Below are positions 12,267-38,002 of a stretch of 64,000 nt of DNA, piece after piece. The position numbers were made by a program, and so were the translations under genes. The notes under the pieces are model-generated. The model worked only from the letters and a program-made list of their open reading frames with translations, ran no database searches and was not told the DNA's origin. This DNA comes from Chryseobacterium salipaludis (GTDB taxonomy: Bacteria > Bacteroidota > Bacteroidia > Flavobacteriales > Weeksellaceae): NCBI RefSeq assembly GCF_022968825.1, contig NZ_JALHKS010000003.1, positions 248,001-312,000 of the forward strand. Direction: 5' to 3'. How positions within the stretch are numbered: position 1 is the first letter of the stretch; each line of letters starts with the position of its first letter.

Positions 12267-12305
12267 GCGTACTCCGTCCGGGAAAGAAAGAACGGAATGT
12301 CCCTC

Positions 12306-12384
12306 ATAGCCCGGATGGAAGCGGCATCCTGCGCCGCGGCGGCAAAGCCGCCGCGGCGCAGATATAGCGGACAGCCGGACGAGA
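12306..12384. repeat. hairpin-core intergenic repeat, copy C
   Basis: Perfect 14-bp inverted repeat (TGCGCCGCGGCGGC at 12330-12343; GCCGCCGCGGCGCA at 12347-12360) with an AAA loop, flanked by AGCCCGGATGGAAGCGG and GATATAGCGGACAGCCGG. Read on the minus strand, the flanks match the element at 29678-29747. Fills the space between convergent tyrA and sdaA and may also end transcription, though no T run follows. Confidence 0.75.
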
Positions 12385-12421
12385 TTTCCACTGAGCACAG
12401 TACTTCCTGCTCCTAAAAATT

Positions 12422-25231: not shown

Positions 25232-25972
25232 CTAATTGCGGATATTTTCAATAAAAGCCGCCCCCGATGTTTCCCAATCCGGGTCATCCAGCAGAATTTT
25301 CACAAAGGCCGAACCTATGATGGCGCCGTCTACTTTAGCTGAAATCTGTTTAAAATCCTCGCAGTTACTAATCCCAAATCCGACCATTATTTCATTTTTA
25401 AGTGGCAGTGACTGTAATCGGTTCAGGTAGTTTTCATTATACACCTGCTTCGACTGCTGACCCGTGGTGGATGAACTGGACACTGCATACAGAAATCCGC
25501 TGCCCAGTTTATCCAGGTAATAAATTCTTTCAACAGAAGTTTCCGGGGTAATCAGGAAAATAAAATCCAGCTGATATTGTTCTGTAACCTTTTTATACGC
25601 TCTTTCAAATTCAACCGGCGGCAGGTCAGGAATAATCAAACCCTGCACGCCCGCATCACGGGCCTCGCGGCAAAAATTTTCGAAACCATATTGCAGGACA
25701 GGATTAAGATAACCCATCAGAATAACAGGAATCGTAATACGGTCGCGGATCTCTTTTAATTGCGAAAACAAAATGGAAATAGTCATTCCATTGGCCAGTG
25801 CTTTTTCATGTGCTCGCTGAATGACGGGGCCATCCGCCACCGGATCCGAGTACGGCATTCCTATTTCCACATAGTCTGCGCCCGAGTCCTGAATCATTTG
25901 CAAAACGCGCCCGGTATCGTTCAGCTGCGGGATTCCTGCGGTAAAATAAATATTAAGTTTTTTCTTTTTCAT
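25232..25972 (-). CDS. trpA: tryptophan synthase alpha chain
   Basis: Cleaves indole-3-glycerol phosphate to indole, which passes to TrpB. 246 residues from the ATG at 25972. Catalytic Glu36 and Asp47 lie in YVEIGMPYSDPVADG; IIPDLP and the phosphate-binding GFGISN near the C-terminus are present. An in-frame ATG at 25996 overlaps the end of trpB by 14 nt and would add eight residues not seen in the family; it cannot be ruled out. Last gene of the trp operon. Confidence 0.95.
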   Translation of the reverse strand: MKKKKLNIYFTAGIPQLNDTGRVLQMIQDSGADYVEIGMPYSDPVADGPVIQRAHEKALANGMTISILFSQLKEIRDRITIPVILMGYLNPVLQYGFENFCREARDAGVQGLIIPDLPPVEFERAYKKVTEQYQLDFIFLITPETSVERIYYLDKLGSGFLYAVSSSSTTGQQSKQVYNENYLNRLQSLPLKNEIMVGFGISNCEDFKQISAKVDGAIIGSAFVKILLDDPDWETSGAAFIENIRN

Positions 25973-25982
25973 TGCTGTGTTT

Positions 25983-27188
25983 TTACAGTTTTCCATCCTT
26001 TGCCAAATCAGTCATATACGCTTCCATGTCTTTATCACCGCGTCCGCTCAGGCAGATTACTACTTTTTCCTCCGTTTTAAACTTCATAAAGTCCAGGACT
26101 GCCAGTGCGTGCGCCGATTCCAGCGCCGGAATAATTCCCTCGCGCCGTGCCAGTTTCTTTGCAGAAGCCAGCGCCTGCTGATCAGTCACACAAACGAATT
26201 CTGCTCTGCCCGAGGCAAACAAATGGGCGTGCATCGGACCAATTCCCGGATAATCCAGACCGGCAGAAATCGAATGCGGTTCAATCACCTGTCCTTCGCC
26301 AGTCTGCATCACCAGGCTTTTACTGCCGTGCAAAATGCCGGTCGTACCCAAGGCGGTGGTCGCTGCCGATTTACCTGAGTCAACACCTAAACCGCCGGCC
26401 TCTGCCGCGATGAGCCGCACTGACAGTTCATCCGCGAAATGATAAAAAGCACCGGCGGCATTACTGCCACCGCCCACGCAGGCAATGATGGCGTCAGGCA
26501 GTTCAGATCCGGTTTGTTCGCGCAGCTGAAATCGTATTTCCTCGGAAATAACACTTTGGAAACGTGCCACCAAATCCGGGAAAGGATGAGGCCCCACCAC
26601 GCTGCCGATGATATAATGCGTGGAATCAGCGTTATTAATCCAATCGCGCAAGGCTTCGTTCACGGCATCTTTCAGCGTTTTGGAACCCGAAGTGGCAGGA
26701 ACCACGGTCGCACCCAGCATTTTCATCCGTGCTACGTTGGGCGCCTGCCGCTTGATATCAACCTCGCCCATGTAAACAATGCATTCCAGGCCGAGCAGCG
26801 CACAAGCTGTCGCCGTCGCAACGCCGTGCTGGCCCGCGCCCGTTTCGGCAATAATTCTTTTTTTGCCTAAATGCTGCGCAAGAAGTGCCTGGCCCAGCGC
26901 GTTATTAATTTTATGCGCACCGGTGTGGTTTAAATCCTCACGCTTCAAATAAATCTGGGTGTTATATTGGTTACTTAAATTTTCAGCAAAATATAATGGC
27001 GTGGCACGCCCGACATAGTCTTTCAGCAGCGCCGAATACTGTTTTTTAAATGCCGGCCTTTCCATAATCTCCAGATATTCCGAGCGCAATTCCTCCACAT
27101 TCGGATACAGCATTTCCGGTACGAAGGCGCCGCCGAACTCGCCATAATATCCGTTGATGTCAGGATTTTTATAGGTTTTATTTATCAT
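25983..27188 (-). CDS. trpB: tryptophan synthase beta chain
   Basis: PLP enzyme joining indole and serine. 401 residues. PLP Lys93 in [24 protein letters not shown] near 115-124 and GGGSNA near 231-236 (phosphate cradle) present; TrpB1 type, partner of the adjacent trpA. Spaced 32 nt after trpF. Confidence 0.97.
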
Positions 27189-27220
27189 CAGTTTTTTGTA
27201 ATGTTAGCGTATTTAAATTT

Positions 27221-27862
27221 TCAATTTCTTAACCTTATTAAGAAACTGCGGACCTTGTTTACATCTTTCAGGCCTGGTGCTGTTTCAAAACGTGAGTTAA
27301 TATCGAGTGTTTGAGGTTGGATTTGTAATGTTTTAAGTTTTGGCAATAAAGATTCATCAATACCGCCGCTTAGCCAATAGGGCTTTTCAAAAGTAACGTC
27401 ATTAAGAAAACTCCACTCAAAAGATTGTCCGGTTCCACCATAAGAACTGCCATCAGTATCAAATAAAAGAATATCCACTTCTTTCATATGATTGTATCGC
27501 TGAATTTGCTGGCAGACTAATCCTTTATCTGAACCGACACGGATTACTTTAATTATTTTAATCCCGGCAGGCAGCGCTTTCTTTACATTTAAAATATAAT
27601 TTAAATCTTCGTCGCCGTGCAACTGTACAAAATGGAGTCCTGCGTGTTGAGCGATTTCCACTACTTCATGTATATCTGCATTAACAAACACACCCACTTT
27701 TCCACTGTGCGTAATTTGTGAAATCGCTTGCAATGAAAGATGAGTCAGCACATATCTTTTAGATTTTGCATAGAAAATAAAACCCAGATAATCAGCGCCC
27801 ACTTGTTGCAGTTCTTCCGCTTGTTTTAGATTTGTGACCCCGCACACTTTTACTTTCATCAT
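27221..27862 (-). CDS. trpF: phosphoribosylanthranilate isomerase
   Basis: Amadori rearrangement of phosphoribosylanthranilate. 213 residues. Catalytic Cys in KVKVCGVT near residue 7 and Asp in LLFDTDGSSYGGTGQSF near 130-146. Stand-alone protein, not fused to TrpC as in enterics. Overlaps trpC by 4 nt (ATGA), so translation is coupled; either of the two first Met codons may be used. Slightly more A+T-rich than its neighbours by eye. Confidence 0.95.
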   Translation of the reverse strand: MMKVKVCGVTNLKQAEELQQVGADYLGFIFYAKSKRYVLTHLSLQAISQITHSGKVGVFVNADIHEVVEIAQHAGLHFVQLHGDEDLNYILNVKKALPAGIKIIKVIRVGSDKGLVCQQIQRYNHMKEVDILLFDTDGSSYGGTGQSFEWSFLNDVTFEKPYWLSGGIDESLLPKLKTLQIQPQTLDINSRFETAPGLKDVNKVRSFLIRLRN

Positions 27863-28632
27863 AATGTTTTTACAAAGTTTGCAAACGCTTCCGCCGGCGC
27901 ATCCGATTCCATAAAACGGGTACCGATCAGAAAACCATTAAATCCGTTTTCTTTTAAATAGTGGTAATCTTCCGCCGACCGCATACCGCTTTCAGCTACT
28001 TTAATCACATCCGCCGGAAGTGCCGCCGCCAAATCCACCGAATGCTGCAGATCCACTTTAAAGTTTTTTAGATTGCGGTTATTCACGCCCACCATATCAA
28101 TTTCTCTACACACATGGCCTAACTCCTCTGCCGAATGCAGTTCCAGTAATACCTGCAATTGCAGACTGTGCGCCAAGTCCGTGAACTCCTGCACCTGTGC
28201 CGGAGACAAGCAGGCCGCAATGAGCAGCACCGCCGAAGCCCCCAGCCCGCGCGCTTCATAAAACTGGTATTCGTCCACCATGAAATCTTTTCGCAAGACA
28301 GGAATACGGACCGTTTGCACGGCCTTCACAAAATCATTGGCCGAACCGCCAAAAAAAGCCGAATCCGTCAGCACTGAAATTGCACTGGCTCCGCCACGCT
28401 CGTAACCTTCAACAGTTTCTGCAACAGCCGCCTTGGCATTGATAATTCCTTTGCTGGGCGATTGTCTTTTAAACTCAGCGATAATGCCGTGTTTATTTTG
28501 TACTCCATCCGTGAAAGAAAGCGGGTCTTGTTGCGCTGCGTCAGTTTCCAAAAATTTTCTGTATTCAAATGTGCGCTTCGCTTGTTGCACCTCCAGTTTT
28601 TTGTGCGCGATGATTTTCTTTAATATATCCAT
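27859..28632 (-). CDS. trpC: indole-3-glycerol phosphate synthase
   Basis: Ring closure of carboxyphenylamino-deoxyribulose phosphate. 257 residues, monofunctional. IAEFKRQSPSKG near 51-62, VLRKDFMVDEYQFYEARGLGA near 111-131, GVNNRNL and VAESGM carry the catalytic Lys/Glu/Asn set. Begins one base after the trpD stop and overlaps trpF. Confidence 0.97.
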   Translation of the reverse strand: MDILKKIIAHKKLEVQQAKRTFEYRKFLETDAAQQDPLSFTDGVQNKHGIIAEFKRQSPSKGIINAKAAVAETVEGYERGGASAISVLTDSAFFGGSANDFVKAVQTVRIPVLRKDFMVDEYQFYEARGLGASAVLLIAACLSPAQVQEFTDLAHSLQLQVLLELHSAEELGHVCREIDMVGVNNRNLKNFKVDLQHSVDLAAALPADVIKVAESGMRSAEDYHYLKENGFNGFLIGTRFMESDAPAEAFANFVKTL

Positions 28633-28633
28633 T

Positions 28634-29620
28634 TTATTGTATCAGTTTTTTAAAGTTTTGCAGGGCGACTCCGTCGGACAATGTTTTGTAAGCGAGTTCC
28701 AGGCATTGTCTATAATCGCCATGCTGTCCTGCGGTTTCCAGCGCAAGGGCGGCATTGGTTGCCACTACCGCATTTTGTGCTTCGGTTCCCTTTCCGCTTA
28801 AAATCTGATAAAATATCTCCGCGGCCTTTTCCGGCGTGGTCCCTCCGTATAAATTTTCGGCTCGTACTGGCTGCGGATTCAGGCTGCGCGCGGTACAGAC
28901 TTTTACGCCGTGACTGGTGATCAGTTTCGTATCGCAGATCAGGCTAACTTCATCATATCCGTCCAGCGAATGCACCAGCAGAAAATGCTGATTTTTCTTT
29001 TGCAGCAAATATTGATACAGCCTGGCAATTTCCAGATTGGCCACACCGATGATCGAATACCTCGGCCGCGCCGGGTTAATGAGCGGTCCCAGCAGATTAA
29101 AAAAAGTTTTCAGTCCCAGATTTTTGCGCATCGGTGCAATATTCTTCAATGACGTATGAAACAGGGGCGCATGCAGATAACAGAAGTTGCTCTTTTCAAG
29201 GTCGCGCTTTAACTCTTCTTCAGTTTTTTTAAACCGGTATCCCAACAGTTCCAGCACGTTCGACGCACCGCTCACCGCAGAGGCGGCATAATTGCCATGC
29301 TTAGCGACTGGCTGTCCCGCCGCAGCCACCACCAGTGCAGCCAAGGTTGAAATATTGAAGGTATCCTTTCCGTCGCCGCCCGTGCCCACAATGTCTACCA
29401 GTCCATCATTTTCCAGGTTTATATTTGGTGCCAATTGTTGCAGCGCTTCCACGAATCCTTCCAGCTCCTCCATCGTGATACTGCGCATCAGAAAAACCGA
29501 CACAAACGCCGTCACTTCGATTTCATTAAATATATTTTTGGCAATTTCCAGCAATACGGATTTCGCTTGCGCTTTACTCAGCGTTTGGTGATCAAATAAA
29601 TATTGTAGTATTTCTTTCAT
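28634..29620 (-). CDS. trpD: anthranilate phosphoribosyltransferase
   Basis: Joins anthranilate to PRPP. 328 residues, monofunctional. PRPP loop GTGGDGKDTFNIST at 79-92, KHGNYAASAVSGASNVLE near 107-124. Separated from trpG by 118 bp that hold a hairpin-core repeat, the only long gap in the trp operon. Confidence 0.96.
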   Translation of the reverse strand: MKEILQYLFDHQTLSKAQAKSVLLEIAKNIFNEIEVTAFVSVFLMRSITMEELEGFVEALQQLAPNINLENDGLVDIVGTGGDGKDTFNISTLAALVVAAAGQPVAKHGNYAASAVSGASNVLELLGYRFKKTEEELKRDLEKSNFCYLHAPLFHTSLKNIAPMRKNLGLKTFFNLLGPLINPARPRYSIIGVANLEIARLYQYLLQKKNQHFLLVHSLDGYDEVSLICDTKLITSHGVKVCTARSLNPQPVRAENLYGGTTPEKAAEIFYQILSGKGTEAQNAVVATNAALALETAGQHGDYRQCLELAYKTLSDGVALQNFKKLIQ

Positions 29621-29677
29621 AGTTTAAATATTTTTATTGGGGCAATCCCCTCGCCCATCCTTGGCCAGCCGCGCCGG

Positions 29678-29747
29678 GGCCGGGCTATCTGCTGCAATCT
29701 GCGGCTCCTGTGTCGCCGCAGGATTTACGCGTCTATCCCTATTGCGG
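29678..29747. repeat. hairpin-core intergenic repeat, copy A (inside the trp operon)
   Basis: Between trpG and trpD. Core stem CTGCGGC/GCCGCAG (arms near 29700-29706 and 29716-29722) flanked by GCCGGGCTATCTGCTGCAAT and ATCCCTATTGCGG. One flank supplies the last codons and stop of trpG (Met-Pro-Gln-stop), so the element reaches into coding sequence. Aligns with copies B and, on the opposite strand, C. Confidence 0.7.
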
Positions 29748-30320
29748 CATGGACGCGCCGAAAAAGTTTTCCAGTATTTTTCTGCCGTTGGGCGTCAGGA
29801 TGCTTTCGGGGTGATATTGCACACCATGTACATCGCAGGTTCTGTGTTGCAGGGACATAATAATACCGTTGGCATCACGGCTCGTAATCAGCAATTCTTC
29901 CGGAAAATCCAGCTCAGAGACAGCCCAGCTGTGGTAGCGGCCTACTTCTATTTCAGCCGGCAGGCCCCGTAAAAGTGGAGCTTCCGAAACACAGGAAGTG
30001 GCAGCGGTTGCCACCCCGTGGAAAATCTCGCTAAGATTCACCAGCGTCGCCCCGAATACTTCTGCAATCGCCTGCTGTCCCAGACACACGCCGAGAATCG
30101 ATTTCGTGGCGGCATACTCACGAATAAGGTCACATAAAATTCCGGCCTCAGCGGGAATACCCGGCCCGGGTGAGAGCACAATTTTATCATAAACTCCAAC
30201 TTCTGCCAGCGTTATTTCGTCGTTTCGGTAGACGTCGGGACGCAGTCCGGTAACCTGCTCGATCATCTGCACCAGGTTATAGGTGAAGCTGTCGTAGTTA
30301 TCAAGTACAAGTGTTTTCAT
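29739..30320 (-). CDS. trpG: anthranilate synthase glutamine amidotransferase subunit
   Basis: Supplies ammonia to TrpE from glutamine. 193 residues, class I GATase: Cys79 in GVCLGQQA, His170 and Glu172 in QYHPES, oxyanion region SPGPGIP at 50-56. Starts 11 nt after trpE. Could in principle also serve folate synthesis (PabA role), since no other pabA is in view. Its final codons lie in repeat copy A. Confidence 0.96.
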   Translation of the reverse strand: MKTLVLDNYDSFTYNLVQMIEQVTGLRPDVYRNDEITLAEVGVYDKIVLSPGPGIPAEAGILCDLIREYAATKSILGVCLGQQAIAEVFGATLVNLSEIFHGVATAATSCVSEAPLLRGLPAEIEVGRYHSWAVSELDFPEELLITSRDANGIIMSLQHRTCDVHGVQYHPESILTPNGRKILENFFGASMPQ

Positions 30321-30331
30321 CTTTGTTTTAT

Positions 30332-31744
30332 TTAAATTTTTTCGGCACGTTCTATCGCCGCACGCAGTGCATTCAGCTTGTTATCTACTTCTTTCAATTC
30401 GTTATGTGCCTCCGACTTTGCCGTGATTCCGGCGCCGGCCTGGTAAATGAGTTCATTATTTTTGCTCAGCATCGTGCGGATCATAATCGCCATATTGCAG
30501 CTGCCGTCGAAACCGGTAAAACCGATGGCCCCGCCATAAAACGATCGGGAAACCTGCTCATATTTGTCAATCAGCTGCATCGCCCGGTGTTTCGGCGCAC
30601 CGCTCAGTGTTCCCTGCGGAAATGTGGCCGCGATTACCTCAAAAGGATTTTGATTTGTAGGGAGTGTCGCGCACACTTCACTGACAAGATGAATCACGTG
30701 TGAAAAAAACTGCACTTCTTTTAATTTGCTGATGTGCGTTTCGTTTCCGAAGACACTTAGGTCATTACGAGCAAGGTCCACAAGCATGGTGTGCTCTGCG
30801 TTCTCTTTTGCGTCGGCTTTTAATTCTTCCGCTGCCTGCAGGTCCGCCGCCACATCTCCGGTCCGGCGAAATGTACCTGCAATCGGATGAATAATGGCTT
30901 TGTTATCTTTAATAATAAGCTGGCTCTCCGGGCTGGAACCGATTAATTTATAATCTCCGTAATCAAAAAAGAAGAGATACGGCGACGGATTGATTGTCCG
31001 CAGGCTGCGGTACACATTAAACTCATCACCGGCGAAAGGAATGCGGAAACGGCGGCTTAAAACCAGCTGGAAAACATCGCCGCGGAAACAGTGCTGTTTT
31101 GCTTTTTCGGTAATTTCCAGAAAATATTCGCTGCTCGAATTGCTTTGTTCTGCGCCGATGGTCTTAAACGGATACACCGGTGCATTCTTCTGATGGATCA
31201 GGTTTTCAATTTCGAGGACAGGCGATTTCAGGCCACTGAATTTATTTTCGATAATGAACATTTCATCATTGTAATGATTAATTGCAATCACGACCTGATA
31301 CAGCCTGTAGCGCAACAGCGGAATCTGATTTTCTGCCTGCTGAATATCAATCTTTTCAAAGAAAGAAACTGCATCATATGAAATGTATCCGTACAATCCC
31401 TGCGCGTATTTTGCCATTGGGTGAGCTGCCGGCTCCGATCGAAAACAGTCGCTGAACTCCTGGAGAACATCCGTCAGTTTCTGATTTTCGAGATCGATGC
31501 TGAATGGCTCCCCTGCCGGAAACTTCACTTCCGCGGAACGACGGTTTTCTATCTCAATTCCCGCGATGGCATTGACTGCGATAAAAGAAAAGTTATTCTC
31601 CGTATTCTGATTTCCGGCGCTTTCCAACAGAATAGTATCACGGAAGCGGTCGCGCAGCCGCAGGTAAATTCCGACCGGCGTGAAGAGATCGCTCATCACT
31701 GTTTTTACCGTCGTTTTAAAGGGAAAAGATTCTGAAAAGTTCAT
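30332..31744 (-). CDS. trpE: anthranilate synthase component I
   Basis: Chorismate to anthranilate, first committed step. 470 residues from the ATG at 31744. The frame extends further upstream but that part overlaps the leader terminator hairpin, so 31744 is the first start that can be on a read-through transcript; a second Met 16 codons later is possible. The Trp feedback motif LLES is at 39-42, indicating allosteric inhibition. Chorismate-binding core shows IIHPIAGTFRRTGD, LVDLARND and GTLSGAPKHRAM. Heads the operon trpE-G-D-C-F-B-A. Confidence 0.96.
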   Translation of the reverse strand: MNFSESFPFKTTVKTVMSDLFTPVGIYLRLRDRFRDTILLESAGNQNTENNFSFIAVNAIAGIEIENRRSAEVKFPAGEPFSIDLENQKLTDVLQEFSDCFRSEPAAHPMAKYAQGLYGYISYDAVSFFEKIDIQQAENQIPLLRYRLYQVVIAINHYNDEMFIIENKFSGLKSPVLEIENLIHQKNAPVYPFKTIGAEQSNSSSEYFLEITEKAKQHCFRGDVFQLVLSRRFRIPFAGDEFNVYRSLRTINPSPYLFFFDYGDYKLIGSSPESQLIIKDNKAIIHPIAGTFRRTGDVAADLQAAEELKADAKENAEHTMLVDLARNDLSVFGNETHISKLKEVQFFSHVIHLVSEVCATLPTNQNPFEVIAATFPQGTLSGAPKHRAMQLIDKYEQVSRSFYGGAIGFTGFDGSCNMAIMIRTMLSKNNELIYQAGAGITAKSEAHNELKEVDNKLNALRAAIERAEKI

Positions 31745-31762
31745 GTTAATTTTTAATTTTGA

Positions 31763-31803
31763 AATAAAAAAAAAGACCTCAGCGGGTCCCGCCAAAGTCT
31801 TTT
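31763..31803 (-). terminator. trp leader attenuator (terminator hairpin)
   Basis: On the minus strand AAAAGAC (31803-31797) pairs with GTCTTTT (31777-31771) around an inner GCGGG/CCCGC stem (31792-31788, 31786-31782), then a T9 run ATTT to 31763. Lies between the leader peptide and trpE, 19 nt before trpE ATG. A hairpin TTTATAT-AAGC-ATATAAA (31801-31818) overlaps its 5' foot, and GGGTC in the last leader codons (31841-31845) can pair with GACCC in the apex (31784-31788): two candidate anti-terminators. Confidence 0.85.
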
Positions 31804-31837
31804 ATATGCTTATATAAACAAAATACAAAGATTCGCC

Positions 31838-31894
31838 TCAGACCCTAAGAGAGTTTGAAAGCCACCACCAAGTATTTTGTACTGTTAGATTCAT
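31838..31894 (-). CDS. trpL: trp leader peptide with three tandem Trp codons (18 aa)
   Basis: Minus strand frame ATG at 31894 to TGA at 31838, product MNLTVQNTWWWLSNSLRV. TGG-TGG-TGG are codons 9-11 (31870-31862). Three successive Trp codons in an 18-codon frame placed between a consensus promoter and a terminator ahead of trpE is the classical architecture of ribosome-mediated attenuation. Codons 5-8 (ACAAAATAC, 31872-31880) are perfectly complementary to GTATTTTGT at 31826-31818, giving a 1:2 pairing that a ribosome stalled on the Trp codons would prevent. The ATG lies only 5 nt after the -7 box, so this may be a leaderless message. Confidence 0.85.
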   Translation of the reverse strand: MNLTVQNTWWWLSNSLRV

Positions 31895-31899
31895 TACAG

Positions 31900-31929
31900 C
31901 AAATATAGATATGTTTTCAGATAATCCAA
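31900..31929 (-). promoter_or_regulatory. trp operon promoter (TTG-N19-TATATTTG)
   Basis: Minus strand TTG at 31929-31927 and TATATTTG at 31907-31900 with exactly 19 nt between, an ideal Bacteroidetes promoter. Directs transcription of trpL and the trp operon. Confidence 0.8.
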
Positions 31930-31982
31930 ACAATTATGAAAAAAAATTAAAAAATAAAATTTACAAAATCTTAAATTTATAT

Positions 31983-32012
31983 TTGCTGGTATCTCAAATT
32001 AGTTTAGTTTTG
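31983..32012 (+). promoter_or_regulatory. promoter of the 68-aa lipoprotein gene (TTG-N19-TAGTTTTG)
   Basis: TTG at 31983-31985, TAGTTTTG at 32005-32012, spacing 19 nt, ATG at 32032. Divergent from the trp promoter, 50 bp apart. Confidence 0.75.
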
Positions 32013-32031
32013 CCACAAATAAAATTTTACT

Positions 32032-32238
32032 ATGAAAAAATTATTAGCAATCGCGTTCGTTGGTGGTCTGATCATGGCGAGCTGTGCAAAAAAAGAATCT
32101 GTTGATGAAACAAACACAATGATGACTGAACCGGACAGCATCACTACTCCAATGATGGACAGCACTGCAATGATGCCTGCTGACTCTGCAGCGGTAGTTG
32201 CTCCAACGGTAACTGATTCTACAGCAGTAGTACAGTAA
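32032..32238 (+). CDS. small low-complexity lipoprotein (68 aa)
   Basis: Type II signal peptide with Cys18 in LIMASC-AKKES, so a lipoprotein of about 51 mature residues. The mature part is a Thr/Ser/Asp/Met/Ala-rich, probably disordered tail with repeats of DS(T/I/A) and V-A-P-T-V-T-D-S-T. Similar short acidic lipoproteins are common in Chryseobacterium and have no known role. Consensus promoter upstream and a terminator just after show it is an independent, probably well-expressed gene. Divergent from the trp operon. Confidence 0.8.
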   Translation: MKKLLAIAFVGGLIMASCAKKESVDETNTMMTEPDSITTPMMDSTAMMPADSAAVVAPTVTDSTAVVQ

Positions 32239-32260
32239 TCACCACGCAACGAAAGAAAAC

Positions 32261-32288
32261 AGCAGCCTTTTAAAGGTTGCTTTTTTTA
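32261..32288 (+). terminator. terminator after the small lipoprotein gene
   Basis: 9-bp stem AGCAGCCTT (32261-32269) / AAGGTTGCT (32273-32281) with one G-T pair, then seven or more T. Confidence 0.8.
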
Positions 32289-32325
32289 TGCCCGGCCGGC
32301 AGCTGGCTTTTGCTGAAATTTTAAT

Positions 32326-32333
32326 TAAATTTG
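32326..32333 (+). promoter_or_regulatory. -7 box of lysS (TAAATTTG)
   Basis: Exact TAnnTTTG match 26 nt upstream of the lysS ATG; no TTG at the optimal spacing. Confidence 0.5.
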
Positions 32334-32359
32334 CATTCTTTTACATATACTTATAATCC

Positions 32360-34057
32360 ATGCAATTAACCGAACAGGAAATCATACGCCGCGAAAAGTT
32401 ACAAGCCCTCCGAAATCTGGGCATCGAACCATTCCCAGCCGCCGAATATAAAGTAACCGACACGACCTTTTCCGCGAAGGAAAATTATGAAGAAGGAAAA
32501 AAGGTGTGCCTCGCCGGCCGCCTGATGAGCCGACGTATTCAGGGGAAAGCCAGCTTTGCGGAATTGCAGGATTCCGAAGGACGTATCCAGGTATATTTTA
32601 ACCGCGATGAAATCTGTACTGGCGACGATAAGACGCTCTACAATGAAGTATATAAACACTTGCTGGACATTGGTGATATTATCGGTATCGAAGGTGAACT
32701 CTTCACCACACAGGTAGGCGAAAAAACAGTGCTGGTAAAAAACCTGACGGTTCTTGCAAAAGCATTGCGTCCTTTGCCGTTGCCTAAAACAGACGCGGAT
32801 GGAAATACATACGATGCCTTCAATGACGTTGAATTAAGATACCGCCAGCGGTATGTGGACCTGGTAGTGAATCCGCAGGTGAAAGAAGTTTTCATGAAAC
32901 GCACCAAGTTGTTCACGGCGATGCGTAATTTTTTCAATGATGCCGGATATTTCGAAGTGGAAACCCCGGTGTTGCAGCAAATCCCCGGCGGTGCAGCCGC
33001 GCGGCCTTTCATCACGCATCACAACGCGCTGGATATACCATTATATCTCCGTATTGCGAACGAACTGTATCTGAAAAGACTGATCGTGGGCGGATTCGAC
33101 GGTGTCTATGAGTTTGCGAAAAACTTCCGTAATGAAGGAATGGACCGCACCCACAACCCGGAATTCACGGTGATGGAAATCTACGTGGCCTACAAAGATT
33201 ATAACTGGATGATGGACTTCACCGAACAATTGCTGGAGTTCTGTGCCACACAGGTGAACGGCAGTCCGGAGTCCGAGTTTGGCGAACACAAAATCAGCTG
33301 GAAAGCGCCCTACCCACGTGTGTCCATGACGGACGCCATCAAGAAATTTACAGGTTTCGATATTACCGGTAAAACTGAAAAAGAATTATTTGACTTCGCG
33401 CAGTCTATCGGTATTGAGGTGGACGACACCATGGGCAAAGGAAAACTCATTGACGAAATTTTTGGTGAAAAGTGTGAAGGCAATTTCATTCAGCCCACCT
33501 TTATTACAGATTATCCGGTAGAAATGTCGCCACTGACCAAAAAGCACCGAAGCCAGGAAGGCCTCACGGAGCGTTTCGAACTGATGGTATGCGGCAAGGA
33601 GATTGCCAATGCCTACTCGGAGCTAAACGACCCGATTGATCAGCGGGAGCGTTTTGAAGCACAGCTGGCCTTATCCGAAAGAGGTGACGATGAAGCCATG
33701 TTTATCGATAACGATTTTCTGCGTGCTCTGGAATACGGTATGCCACCGACCTCCGGCTTAGGAATCGGCATGGACCGCCTGATTATGTTCCTGACAAATA
33801 ATCCATCCATTCAGGAAGTTTTGTTTTTCCCGCAGATGAAACCCGAAAAAACAACAGCGCAGGTTGAACTTGGGGAAGATGAAAAAGTAATCATTGAAAT
33901 CCTGGCCTCGCAGGAAGCGCCGATGCTTTTAAATGAAGTTAAAGAGCGCAGCCAACTTTCGGGGAAAAAGTGGGACAAAGCCACCAAAGGGCTCACCAAA
34001 CTGGAACTCATTAAGGTGGAGAAATCAGAGGAAGGACTGTTTATGCAGGCACTTTAA
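32360..34057 (+). CDS. lysS: lysyl-tRNA synthetase (class II)
   Basis: Charges tRNA-Lys. 565 residues: OB-fold anticodon domain (about 50-150), class II catalytic core with motif 2 FRNEGMDRTHNPEFT and motif 3 GLGIGMDRLIMFLT near 462-475. After the normal end of the core there is an extra C-terminal segment of 73 residues (493-565) with E-D-E-K-V-I-I-E-I-L... and a K-rich helix, looking like a small winged-helix domain; E. coli LysS has nothing comparable. I recall such tails from other Bacteroidetes. Own unit, closed by a terminator. Confidence 0.96.
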   Translation: MQLTEQEIIRREKLQALRNLGIEPFPAAEYKVTDTTFSAKENYEEGKKVCLAGRLMSRRIQGKASFAELQDSEGRIQVYFNRDEICTGDDKTLYNEVYKHLLDIGDIIGIEGELFTTQVGEKTVLVKNLTVLAKALRPLPLPKTDADGNTYDAFNDVELRYRQRYVDLVVNPQVKEVFMKRTKLFTAMRNFFNDAGYFEVETPVLQQIPGGAAARPFITHHNALDIPLYLRIANELYLKRLIVGGFDGVYEFAKNFRNEGMDRTHNPEFTVMEIYVAYKDYNWMMDFTEQLLEFCATQVNGSPESEFGEHKISWKAPYPRVSMTDAIKKFTGFDITGKTEKELFDFAQSIGIEVDDTMGKGKLIDEIFGEKCEGNFIQPTFITDYPVEMSPLTKKHRSQEGLTERFELMVCGKEIANAYSELNDPIDQRERFEAQLALSERGDDEAMFIDNDFLRALEYGMPPTSGLGIGMDRLIMFLTNNPSIQEVLFFPQMKPEKTTAQVELGEDEKVIIEILASQEAPMLLNEVKERSQLSGKKWDKATKGLTKLELIKVEKSEEGLFMQAL

Positions 34058-37150: not shown

Positions 37151-38002
37151 ATGAAAAACGTTGCCTGCATCATCAATCCAAACTCCTCCAAGGGTAAATA
37201 TCACGCTGCCTTACAGGCTTTTCAGAAGGTGCTGCACGATGACCGTATCCTGCTTTCCAGATCGGCGCAGGACACGCATGAATTTATCAAAAAACAGTGG
37301 AACGACACGGATATTTTTATTGCTGTAGGCGGTGATGGGACCATTACCTCAGTAGCGTGCCAGCTGGCGCATTCGGATAAAATTTTAGCCATTTTGCCGG
37401 GCGGTTCCGGTAATGGATTTTCGCGCGAGCATCAGTTTGATAAAGATATTGACGGACTTCTAAGTAAAATTAAAGGCAAACAATACCGCCGGATTGATAC
37501 CTTCACCGTGAACGGACACTTATCCATCAATGTTTCAGGCGTCGGCTTTGATGGCGTCGTCACTAAATTATTTGAAAAAACCAACCGTGGACTCTGGAAT
37601 TATGTTAAAGTTTCTTTACGAACCTTTTTTTCGTATAAGCCTGTAGAGATTAAGTTTGAGGATGAAAAACACGTAAGCCGCAAAGGTAAATATCTGATGA
37701 TTAATGTGGCCAACACCCGTCAGTTTGGAAACAATGCCTTTATTGCTCCACACGCGACCACTACGGACGGACTTGCTGAAATTGTCCTGGTTAAGAAATT
37801 TCCGCTTTGGTACGGAGCCATCTTCGCTGCCAGATTATTTGCAGGAACCTTAAAAGAGGATGAATATATATCCTACATTTCAACCGCAGATATTAGCTTT
37901 TCCGTGAACAGCCGGGATTGGCATCTGGATGGCGATTACATCGAAATTAGTTCGCCGGTTCACATACAGGTACAGCCGGCCAGCCTTTGTGTTTTGCAGT
38001 AA
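37151..38002 (+). CDS. diacylglycerol/sphingosine kinase-like lipid kinase
   Basis: 283 residues, DAGK catalytic family (YegS/DgkB type). Nucleotide loop GGDGTITSVA near 60-69 and LPGGSGNGFSREH near 82-94; C-terminal beta sandwich ends with WHLDGDYIEISSPVHIQVQPASL. Phosphorylates a membrane lipid, substrate unknown. The stop codon directly abuts the stop of the convergent photolyase gene with no spacer. Confidence 0.88.
   Translation: MKNVACIINPNSSKGKYHAALQAFQKVLHDDRILLSRSAQDTHEFIKKQWNDTDIFIAVGGDGTITSVACQLAHSDKILAILPGGSGNGFSREHQFDKDIDGLLSKIKGKQYRRIDTFTVNGHLSINVSGVGFDGVVTKLFEKTNRGLWNYVKVSLRTFFSYKPVEIKFEDEKHVSRKGKYLMINVANTRQFGNNAFIAPHATTTDGLAEIVLVKKFPLWYGAIFAARLFAGTLKEDEYISYISTADISFSVNSRDWHLDGDYIEISSPVHIQVQPASLCVLQ

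Follow-up and report, generated by a model that had tools for sequence, protein, structure and literature searches.

In Escherichia coli, the trp leader (trpL, RF00513) has tandem Trp codons at positions 10–11 and follows a four-strand logic of 1:2, 2:3 and 3:4 pairings, with strand 2 located after the stop codon and a Shine-Dalgarno site serving the leader. In Bacteroidetes, the Bacteroid-trp motif (RF01692) stems from Weinberg 2010 (PMC2864571, Table 1), and PMC6414381 mentions its occurrence 5′ of the Flavobacterium psychrophilum trp operon. Streptomyces lividans TrpL1, located 5′ of trpE, is an 18-residue leader with WWW at residues 9–11 and is reported as leaderless (PMC8079986), while the trp leader of C. 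diphtheriae is given as MTNMNAHNWWWRA, without a mapped start (PMC5784534). Here we analyse 64,000 nucleotides (nt) of Chryseobacterium salipaludis (contig NZ_JALHKS010000003.1, positions 248,001–312,000; the whole stretch is hereafter the window), in which a short open reading frame (ORF) with three adjacent Trp codons precedes trpE. With high confidence, we interpret this leader as a ribosome-mediated transcription attenuator of the trp operon. It places tandem codons for the end product in a short ORF and, according to computation, has a mutually exclusive antiterminator that stalling would release. Computation supports the codons, the co-variation of helices and the ribosome-dependent accessibility of the terminator arm, while stalling, the transcription start and read-through are inferred.

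Leader and terminator upstream of trpE

All elements of the leader lie on the minus strand. The promoter (31900–31930) comprises TTTG (31930–31927), 19 nt and the −7 box TATATTTG (31907–31900), whose spacing to the ATG is conserved. The leader ORF (31838–31894; ATG 31894–31892, stop TGA 31840–31838) has 18 codons encoding MNLTVQNTWWWLSNSLRV, is predicted to be leaderless and is kept in near relatives; its codons 9–11, TGG TGG TGG (31862–31870), are the proposed stall site. An intrinsic terminator separates the ORF from the biosynthetic genes, with its 5′ arm AAAAGACUUUGGCGG (strand 3, 31789–31803), its 3′ arm (strand 4, 31771–31785) and a run of nine T at 31774–31766. Beyond it lies trpE (30332–31744, ATG 31744; Pfam PF00425/PF04715), the first gene of the controlled operon. 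An earlier note, made from the sequence alone, had described this succession of promoter, 18-codon frame with three TGG codons, T9 hairpin and trpE, and both the elements and their coordinates were verified.

An independent terminator search returned the same hairpin (31803–31771, 15 pairs), and terminator-like sites on both strands of 31700–32400 numbered 5 versus 0.5 in shuffles. The folding energy of the leader was −36.9 compared with −25.9 (standard deviation (sd) 3.7) for shuffled sequences (z −2.99), with 1 of 200 shuffles as good. A search of the window's genome for the pattern TTTG..ATG..TGGTGG gave 22 rows, two of which are the trp leader, against 5 and 4 in the backward control.

Tandem-Trp leaders in relatives

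TrpE matches in 40 of 60 close genomes provided 30 loci, the window's own included, to which we added 80 further loci from Kaistella, Chryseobacterium, Epilithonimonas, Elizabethkingia, Halpernia, Cloacibacterium, Cruoricaptor, one Capnocytophaga and a few others. Together with one more locus of the same family (L111), these form a near-relative set of 111 loci, mostly Weeksellaceae where a name is given, with some genomes present twice; the Capnocytophaga locus, L065, belongs to Flavobacteriaceae. The nearest named TrpE proteins are those of Cruoricaptor (73%) and Kaistella (≤72%), in a search that may omit the window's own record and those closest to it. As both are Weeksellaceae, the description of the organism as a flavobacterium in the earlier note holds at the level of order and not below it.

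A tandem-Trp leader is present 5′ of trpE in 110 of the 111 near-relative loci, which bears out the comparison of tandem TGG codons in relatives that the note had proposed; the remaining locus (L098) is truncated before the ATG by the contig end and was excluded from leader counts. The 92 distinct promoter-plus-leader sequences contain WWW (85) or WW (7), with the first Trp codon at position 8, 9 or 10 and an ORF of 17 to 28 codons; if more than one ATG was available, the script chose the one bringing the Trp run closest to codon 9. The end of the stop codon lies 24, 27, 30, 42, 45 or 51 nt past the last Trp codon. A terminator was detected by script for 107 of the 110 leaders, and the other three loci (L065, L078 and L089) were excluded from the pairing tests and the ribosome scan below.

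Beyond this set, 23 of the 27 loci in other families of the class for which upstream sequence was available have a WW, WWW or WxW leader, as do 21 of 25 further regions, two of which are close to the window (L221, same genus; L222, same family). In three of the four negatives among these 25 regions the sequence before trpE resembles, by eye, the end of trpB, so that any leader would be elsewhere. Two cases were left out of the class counts, namely L135, which has no upstream sequence, and G112, where the match lies at base 16 of the contig. The tandem-Trp filter alone also catches a few chance frames (e.g. at L067 and L112); the leaders that were counted have position, promoter box and terminator in common at most loci.

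Several variants of the leader were observed. In a same-genus group (L002–L004, L007, L009, L011 and L017, with their named copies, Kaistella as far as named) WWHH replaces WWW, with His at the third Trp codon and unchanged spacing. W-R-W, rather than adjacent Trp codons, is found in L205, L207, L208 and L210. Two loci, L223 (G052) and L225 (G037), have two tandem WWW leader ORFs 5′ of trpE; by eye, a terminator-like hairpin with a T-run stands behind each ORF, suggesting a possible double attenuator. In the ribosome scan, the second L223 leader fails.

Competing helices and their co-variation

Three helices, 1:2, 2:3 and 3:4 (the terminator), compete in these leaders. In the window, strand 1 is CUUUCAAACUCU (31850–31861), directly 3′ of the Trp codons, and its partner, strand 2, is AGGGUCUGAGGC (31835–31846), made up of the last two sense codons, the stop codon and three bases; both assignments rest on co-variation and that of strand 1 also on the RF01692 structure line. 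For 1:2, conservation lies in the inner helix, CUUUCAAACUC : GGGUCUGAG, a hairpin right behind the Trp codons that mostly takes the form xxxCA-A-ACUC / GGGU-C-UGxxx. It varies on both sides between clades, usually keeping the internal mismatch, with variants such as CUCAA..UUGAG and UUCAA..UUGAA in the same genus (L005 and L028) and CUUA..UAAG in Cloacibacterium (L067). This hairpin is the predicted fold in 44 of 46 distinct segments, and over 35 distinct pairs the 1:2 pairing averaged −5.40 compared with −4.05 when partners were permuted (0/5000 as good).

The 2:3 pairing joins the later part of 1:2 to the terminator 5′ arm, as in Chryseobacterium (CGUCGGGUCU with AGACUUUGACG), Epilithonimonas (UGUCGGGUCU with AGACUUCGACA), Cloacibacterium (CGCUGAGUCU with AGACUUCAGCG) and one Kaistella group (UCAAAGUCUU with AAGACUUUGA). 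For 44 distinct pairs from 107 leaders, its mean energy was −12.1 kcal/mol versus −10.55 (sd 0.21) with permuted partners, none of 5000 permutations being as good, and shuffled strand 2 gave −5.0. The distance from strand 2 to the Trp codons is constant within about 2–3 nt, while the position of the stop codon moves. The conserved antiterminator predicted from these pairings is strand 2, formed by the codons behind the Trp run and serving as the antiterminator 5′ strand, paired with the terminator 5′ arm.

Two other pairings were considered and set aside as general elements. The earlier note had taken an outer helix as 1:2, and the complementarity it described between ACAAAATAC (31880–31872) and GTATTTTGT (31826–31818) is present; its two sides, ACAAAAUAC (31872–31880) and GUAUUUUGU (31818–31826), fold together and take part in the window's own fold, but across the set this pre-Trp versus post-stop pairing is weakly conserved (−3.71 vs −3.38 permuted, 64/5000 as good) and the conserved 1:2 is the inner helix. 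The note had also proposed pairing of GGGTC (31845–31841) with GACCC (31788–31784) in the terminator apex, which forms in the window's Trp-stalled fold but is weak over the set (−3.08 vs −2.71 permuted, 46/5000 as good) and is not a general antiterminator. A further hairpin that it had placed over the terminator foot, UUAUAUAAGCAUAUAA (31802–31817), does overlap the foot and belongs to the window's antiterminator as predicted by stepwise folding.

These patterns also bear on readings in which the leader works without the ribosome as sensor, or through its product. Conserved hairpins would be expected of a Trp-binding riboswitch or a TRAP-like protein site as well; the conserved unit here, in contrast, is an ORF with Trp codons to which strands 1 and 2 keep their distance while the stop moves, and no Rfam family, riboswitches included, was found at the leader at the gathering score, so that we give such a site hardly any credence. 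The peptide might itself act, through nascent-chain arrest or in trans like peTrpL of Sinorhizobium, a peptide known to act in that way (PMC7298713). Its C-terminal residues are kept within clades (SNSSSGL, QSLEHCSFV), and residues past strand 2, such as LSCC, are unexplained by RNA strands; the conserved residues nearest the Trp codons, however, are encoded where RNA strands 1 and 2 lie and change between clades together with strand 3, which makes an action of the peptide improbable in our view.

Ribosome position and the terminator arm

Attenuation by the ribosome was modelled with an occlusion scan in which each codon was occupied in turn, 30 nt around the ribosome were blocked and the terminator 3′ arm was absent, the readout being the energy required to free the 5′ arm. 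The scan covered 86 distinct near-relative sequences, 19 of the 23 other-family leaders (no terminator was found for L113, L119, L122 and L137) and 20 later-fetched leaders, the 25 regions having been reduced by four with no leader (L209, L216, L217 and L220) and one with no terminator found (L215). Among the 86 near relatives, a mean of 8.3–9.4 kcal/mol held the terminator 5′ arm with the A-site at W1 to W1+2 (W1 being the first Trp codon), compared with 3.1–3.7 at W1−7 to W1−3, 1.1–1.4 at W1+6 to W1+10 and 2.6 without a ribosome. The value at the Trp codons exceeded the ribosome-free value in 86/86, that at early codons in 85/86 and that at the stop codon in 86/86, and the maximum fell within a range from one codon ahead of the Trp run to two codons past it in 81/86. 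Equivalent comparisons held in other families (above no ribosome 19/19, above preceding codons 19/19, above the stop 18/19) and in the later-fetched set (19/20, 19/20 and 17/20, respectively).

Folded stepwise, the Trp-stalled window is predicted to form an antiterminator about as stable as the terminator, with GGGUCU bound to GGACCC in the apex and the post-stop stretch to the terminator foot. With residues masked by the ribosome, a calculation suggested in the earlier note, pairing of the full-length terminator foot drops to 0.3–0.6 at the Trp codons from 1.0 at the stop or without a ribosome, and whole-terminator pairing is 0.29–0.49 when stalled versus 0.94. Comparison and folding thus lend strong support to the note's proposal that stalling at the Trp codons permits an antiterminator.

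Several results weigh against this interpretation. The permutation tests of 1:2 and 2:3 ignore relatedness, and in two leaders of the WWHH group (L003 and L009) 1:2 is not the predicted fold and the 2:3 energies are the weakest (−7.8 and −8.3). A ribosome at the stop codon leaves the 5′ arm partly sequestered once more (mean 5.1 for the 86 sequences), as seen in long ORFs. Leaders with their peak at the Trp codons number 15/19 in other families and only 12/20 in the later-fetched set, in which L223 fails outright and L224 is nearly without contrast. Shuffled spacers matched the native occlusion effect in 4/40 cases for the window and in 0 to 10 of 40 for 29 loci. In the Trp-stalled window the conserved 2:3 pairing reaches ≤0.50 and is then replaced by the apex pairing. 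Finally, the completed terminator is favoured at equilibrium (about 0.9 or more) in all ribosome states for most of 18 sequences, so that the switch would have to be kinetic, with the antiterminator forming first.

The last observation, together with the strength of the hairpin, is also what a constitutive partial terminator beside an unrelated or chance Trp-rich ORF would produce. Such an arrangement would not account for the retention of two or three TGG codons in a row across 92 distinct leaders whose upstream codons vary, for helices that co-vary, or for arm accessibility that depends on a ribosome at the Trp codons, and we regard it as very improbable.

Under ribosome-mediated attenuation, transcription would start about 1 base before the leader ATG, letting a ribosome load on the 5′ end. 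When charged tRNA-Trp is scarce, the ribosome would stall at codons 9–11 and its footprint would cover strand 1 just downstream, disrupting 1:2; the free strand 2 could then pair with the emerging terminator 5′ arm, pre-empting the terminator and allowing RNA polymerase to read into trpE. With plentiful Trp the ribosome would advance over strand 2 and the terminator would form, whereas in longer ORFs it would pass strand 2, 1:2 would re-form and the terminator would again follow. If the leader were not translated, 1:2 (with the outer helix in the window) would form and transcription would also stop.

Box spacing and a predicted leaderless start

With 5 nt between the window's box and the ATG, the predicted transcription start (+1) falls at 31895, 1 base 5′ of the ATG. 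Box-to-ATG spacing in 110 near-relative loci was 4 nt in 44, 5 nt in 48 and 22 nt in one, with no box within 30 nt in 17; among distinct leaders, 77 of 92 have a spacing of 4–5 nt, corresponding to a predicted 5′ untranslated region (UTR) of 0–1 nt. In F. johnsoniae, a promoter was judged probable when its box stood 4 or 5 nt from the start (PMC6847099). We consider it probable, with appreciable room for doubt, that the Weeksellaceae Bacteroid-trp attenuator rests on a leaderless start, in which a sigma-A box is fixed 4–5 nt from the ATG and the ribosome loads on a 5′-terminal AUG without a Shine-Dalgarno site, while strands 1 and 2 within the ORF are nearly fixed relative to the Trp codons and the stop is free to move, which would make it a convergent counterpart to the leaderless WWW leader of Streptomyces, in a phylum whose mRNAs are leaderless in a minority of cases.

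A start further upstream, with attenuation retained and the ORF not leaderless, would be consistent with the box being displaced or absent in 15/92 distinct leaders, with a spacing of 18 nt in the same-order relatives L116 and L118, and with the occurrence of 4–5 nt spacing elsewhere in the window. From a crude list of 76 window ORFs of at least 120 amino acids, 18 have a box within 80 nt, at 4–5 nt in four and at 16–38 nt in 14, and these two spacings are separate classes of start. At 4 of 18 boxes, leaderless genes are a visible minority and the spacing is not unique to the trp leader. Against an upstream start stand the 4–5 nt spacing of the large majority of distinct leaders and the mapping of the F. 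psychrophilum box, TAnnTTTG, to −12 to −5 (PMC9723704), and we consider it unlikely. Leaderless mRNAs make up 5.5% in F. psychrophilum (PMC9723704), and about 3.7% of 5′ UTRs in B. thetaiotaomicron are <10 nt (PMC7366714). The literature searches made yielded, in titles and abstract beginnings, no leaderless Bacteroidetes attenuator; Lopatovskaya 2010, Merino and Yanofsky 2005 and Neshat 2014 may cover more.

The 18 exceptional near-relative loci comprise L060, with no box within 150 nt, two Halpernia loci, with the box at 22 and 35 nt, and 15 with 44 to 92 nt. Ten of these 15 have the box 52–92 nt above the Trp leader (L002, L011, L012, L014, L017, L036, L039, L053, L054 and L058), each with a second ATG exactly 5 nt past the box, as if an insertion had split a leaderless start from the Trp leader; in L053 this upstream ATG is in frame and extends the leader to 41 codons. 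In other families a strict box was found for 15/23 leaders, spaced 4 to 18 nt and ≤6 nt in four (L119, L127, L130 and L131). The window ORFs with a TAnnTTTG box 4–5 nt before the first ATG are at 37151 (+), 2340 (−), 39947 (−) and 15262 (−).

Other amino-acid leaders and genome features

A leaderless start for all amino-acid leaders of the genus was ruled out by hisG, whose leaders have 14–19 nt from box to ATG at 20/20 loci (27 genomes with HisG). At these loci (L140–L159) a His-rich leader lies upstream (e.g. MKNTTALFHHHHLI), and its predicted 5′ UTR is about 10–15 nt in every case. Phe-rich frames preceded pheA at 5/20 loci, none with a box, and a crude run filter found nothing at 4 ilvD and 20 homoserine dehydrogenase loci; given the crudeness of this filter, which was also used for pheA, such leaders are not excluded in either case.

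In the window, trpE is followed by trpG, trpD, trpC, trpF, trpB and trpA in that order (25232–30320, minus strand; Pfam), and all trp genes are present in the window's genome (G000, 2.5 Mb). This genome gave no HisG or IlvD match and a prephenate dehydratase match over 108/181 positions, pointing to possible auxotrophies. A Flavo-1 RNA (RF01705) lies at 12304–12385 on the plus strand (59.5 bits); the available text of PMC9723704 states no function for it. A plasmid search gave no match.

Comparison with known systems

A relaxed Rfam scan placed RF01692 Bacteroid-trp at 31914–31791 with 42.2 bits, below the gathering score of 49, so that a default scan misses the window; at the gathering score the family was missed in the 20 loci tested, the window's own included. 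The alignment spans the full model (positions 1–131 of 131), with two non-standard pairs marked in the printed part. Within the genus, RF01692 was found in 15/36 genomes at E≤0.001, nine above the cut-off and all 15 directly 5′ of trpE by coordinates. No more than 68 first-look candidates were scored in any one genome, so that misses, including that of the window's genome (no match at E≤0.001 among 68 of 323 candidates), are not firm.

Like the window's leader, RF01692 is a Bacteroidetes Trp leader RNA, and the two align over the ATG, the Trp codons, the 1:2 hairpin and the terminator foot. The model ends at the foot and lacks both the terminator and the 2:3 antiterminator. E. coli trpL shares with the window the four-strand logic and tandem Trp codons, but strands 1 and 2 here lie inside the ORF, strand 2 of the window running over the stop, and RF00513 was absent among window matches at E≤10. 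In F. psychrophilum, as here, leader-peptide attenuation is inferred for amino-acid leaders and Bacteroid-trp lies at the trp operon (PMC9723704, PMC6414381); the available text of these two papers does not include the anatomy of the trp leader, and the proportion of leaderless mRNAs given there is low. The earlier note had been uncertain how well such attenuation is described in Flavobacteriia, a point answered by RF01692, which describes it for the phylum, and by the F. psychrophilum trp operon.

The reported S. lividans TrpL1 resembles the window's leader in its length, in the position of WWW and in lying ahead of trpE, but differs in phylum, in sequence and in preceding a monocistronic trpE (PMC8079986); the likeness is presumably convergent. 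If the Weeksellaceae leaders are indeed leaderless, this shared layout would be a clean case of convergence, and the family would offer a natural, Trp-tunable reporter of initiation at a 5′-terminal AUG in a phylum without Shine-Dalgarno sites. The present analysis also provides a testable anatomy for an Rfam motif that is otherwise only named in the texts seen, specifying its antiterminator strand, the required place of stalling and members below the cut-off.

As RF01692, the mention in F. psychrophilum and the S. lividans leader show, Trp attenuation had been described in this phylum before, and a leaderless Trp leader had been reported too. The window's leader is very probably a genuine attenuator belonging to a known kind, ordinary in principle, with one mildly surprising and testable property, its predicted 5′-terminal start codon. 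What the present analysis adds to these described systems is the combination of a predicted leaderless start with Bacteroid-trp, the 2:3 strand and the occlusion profile.

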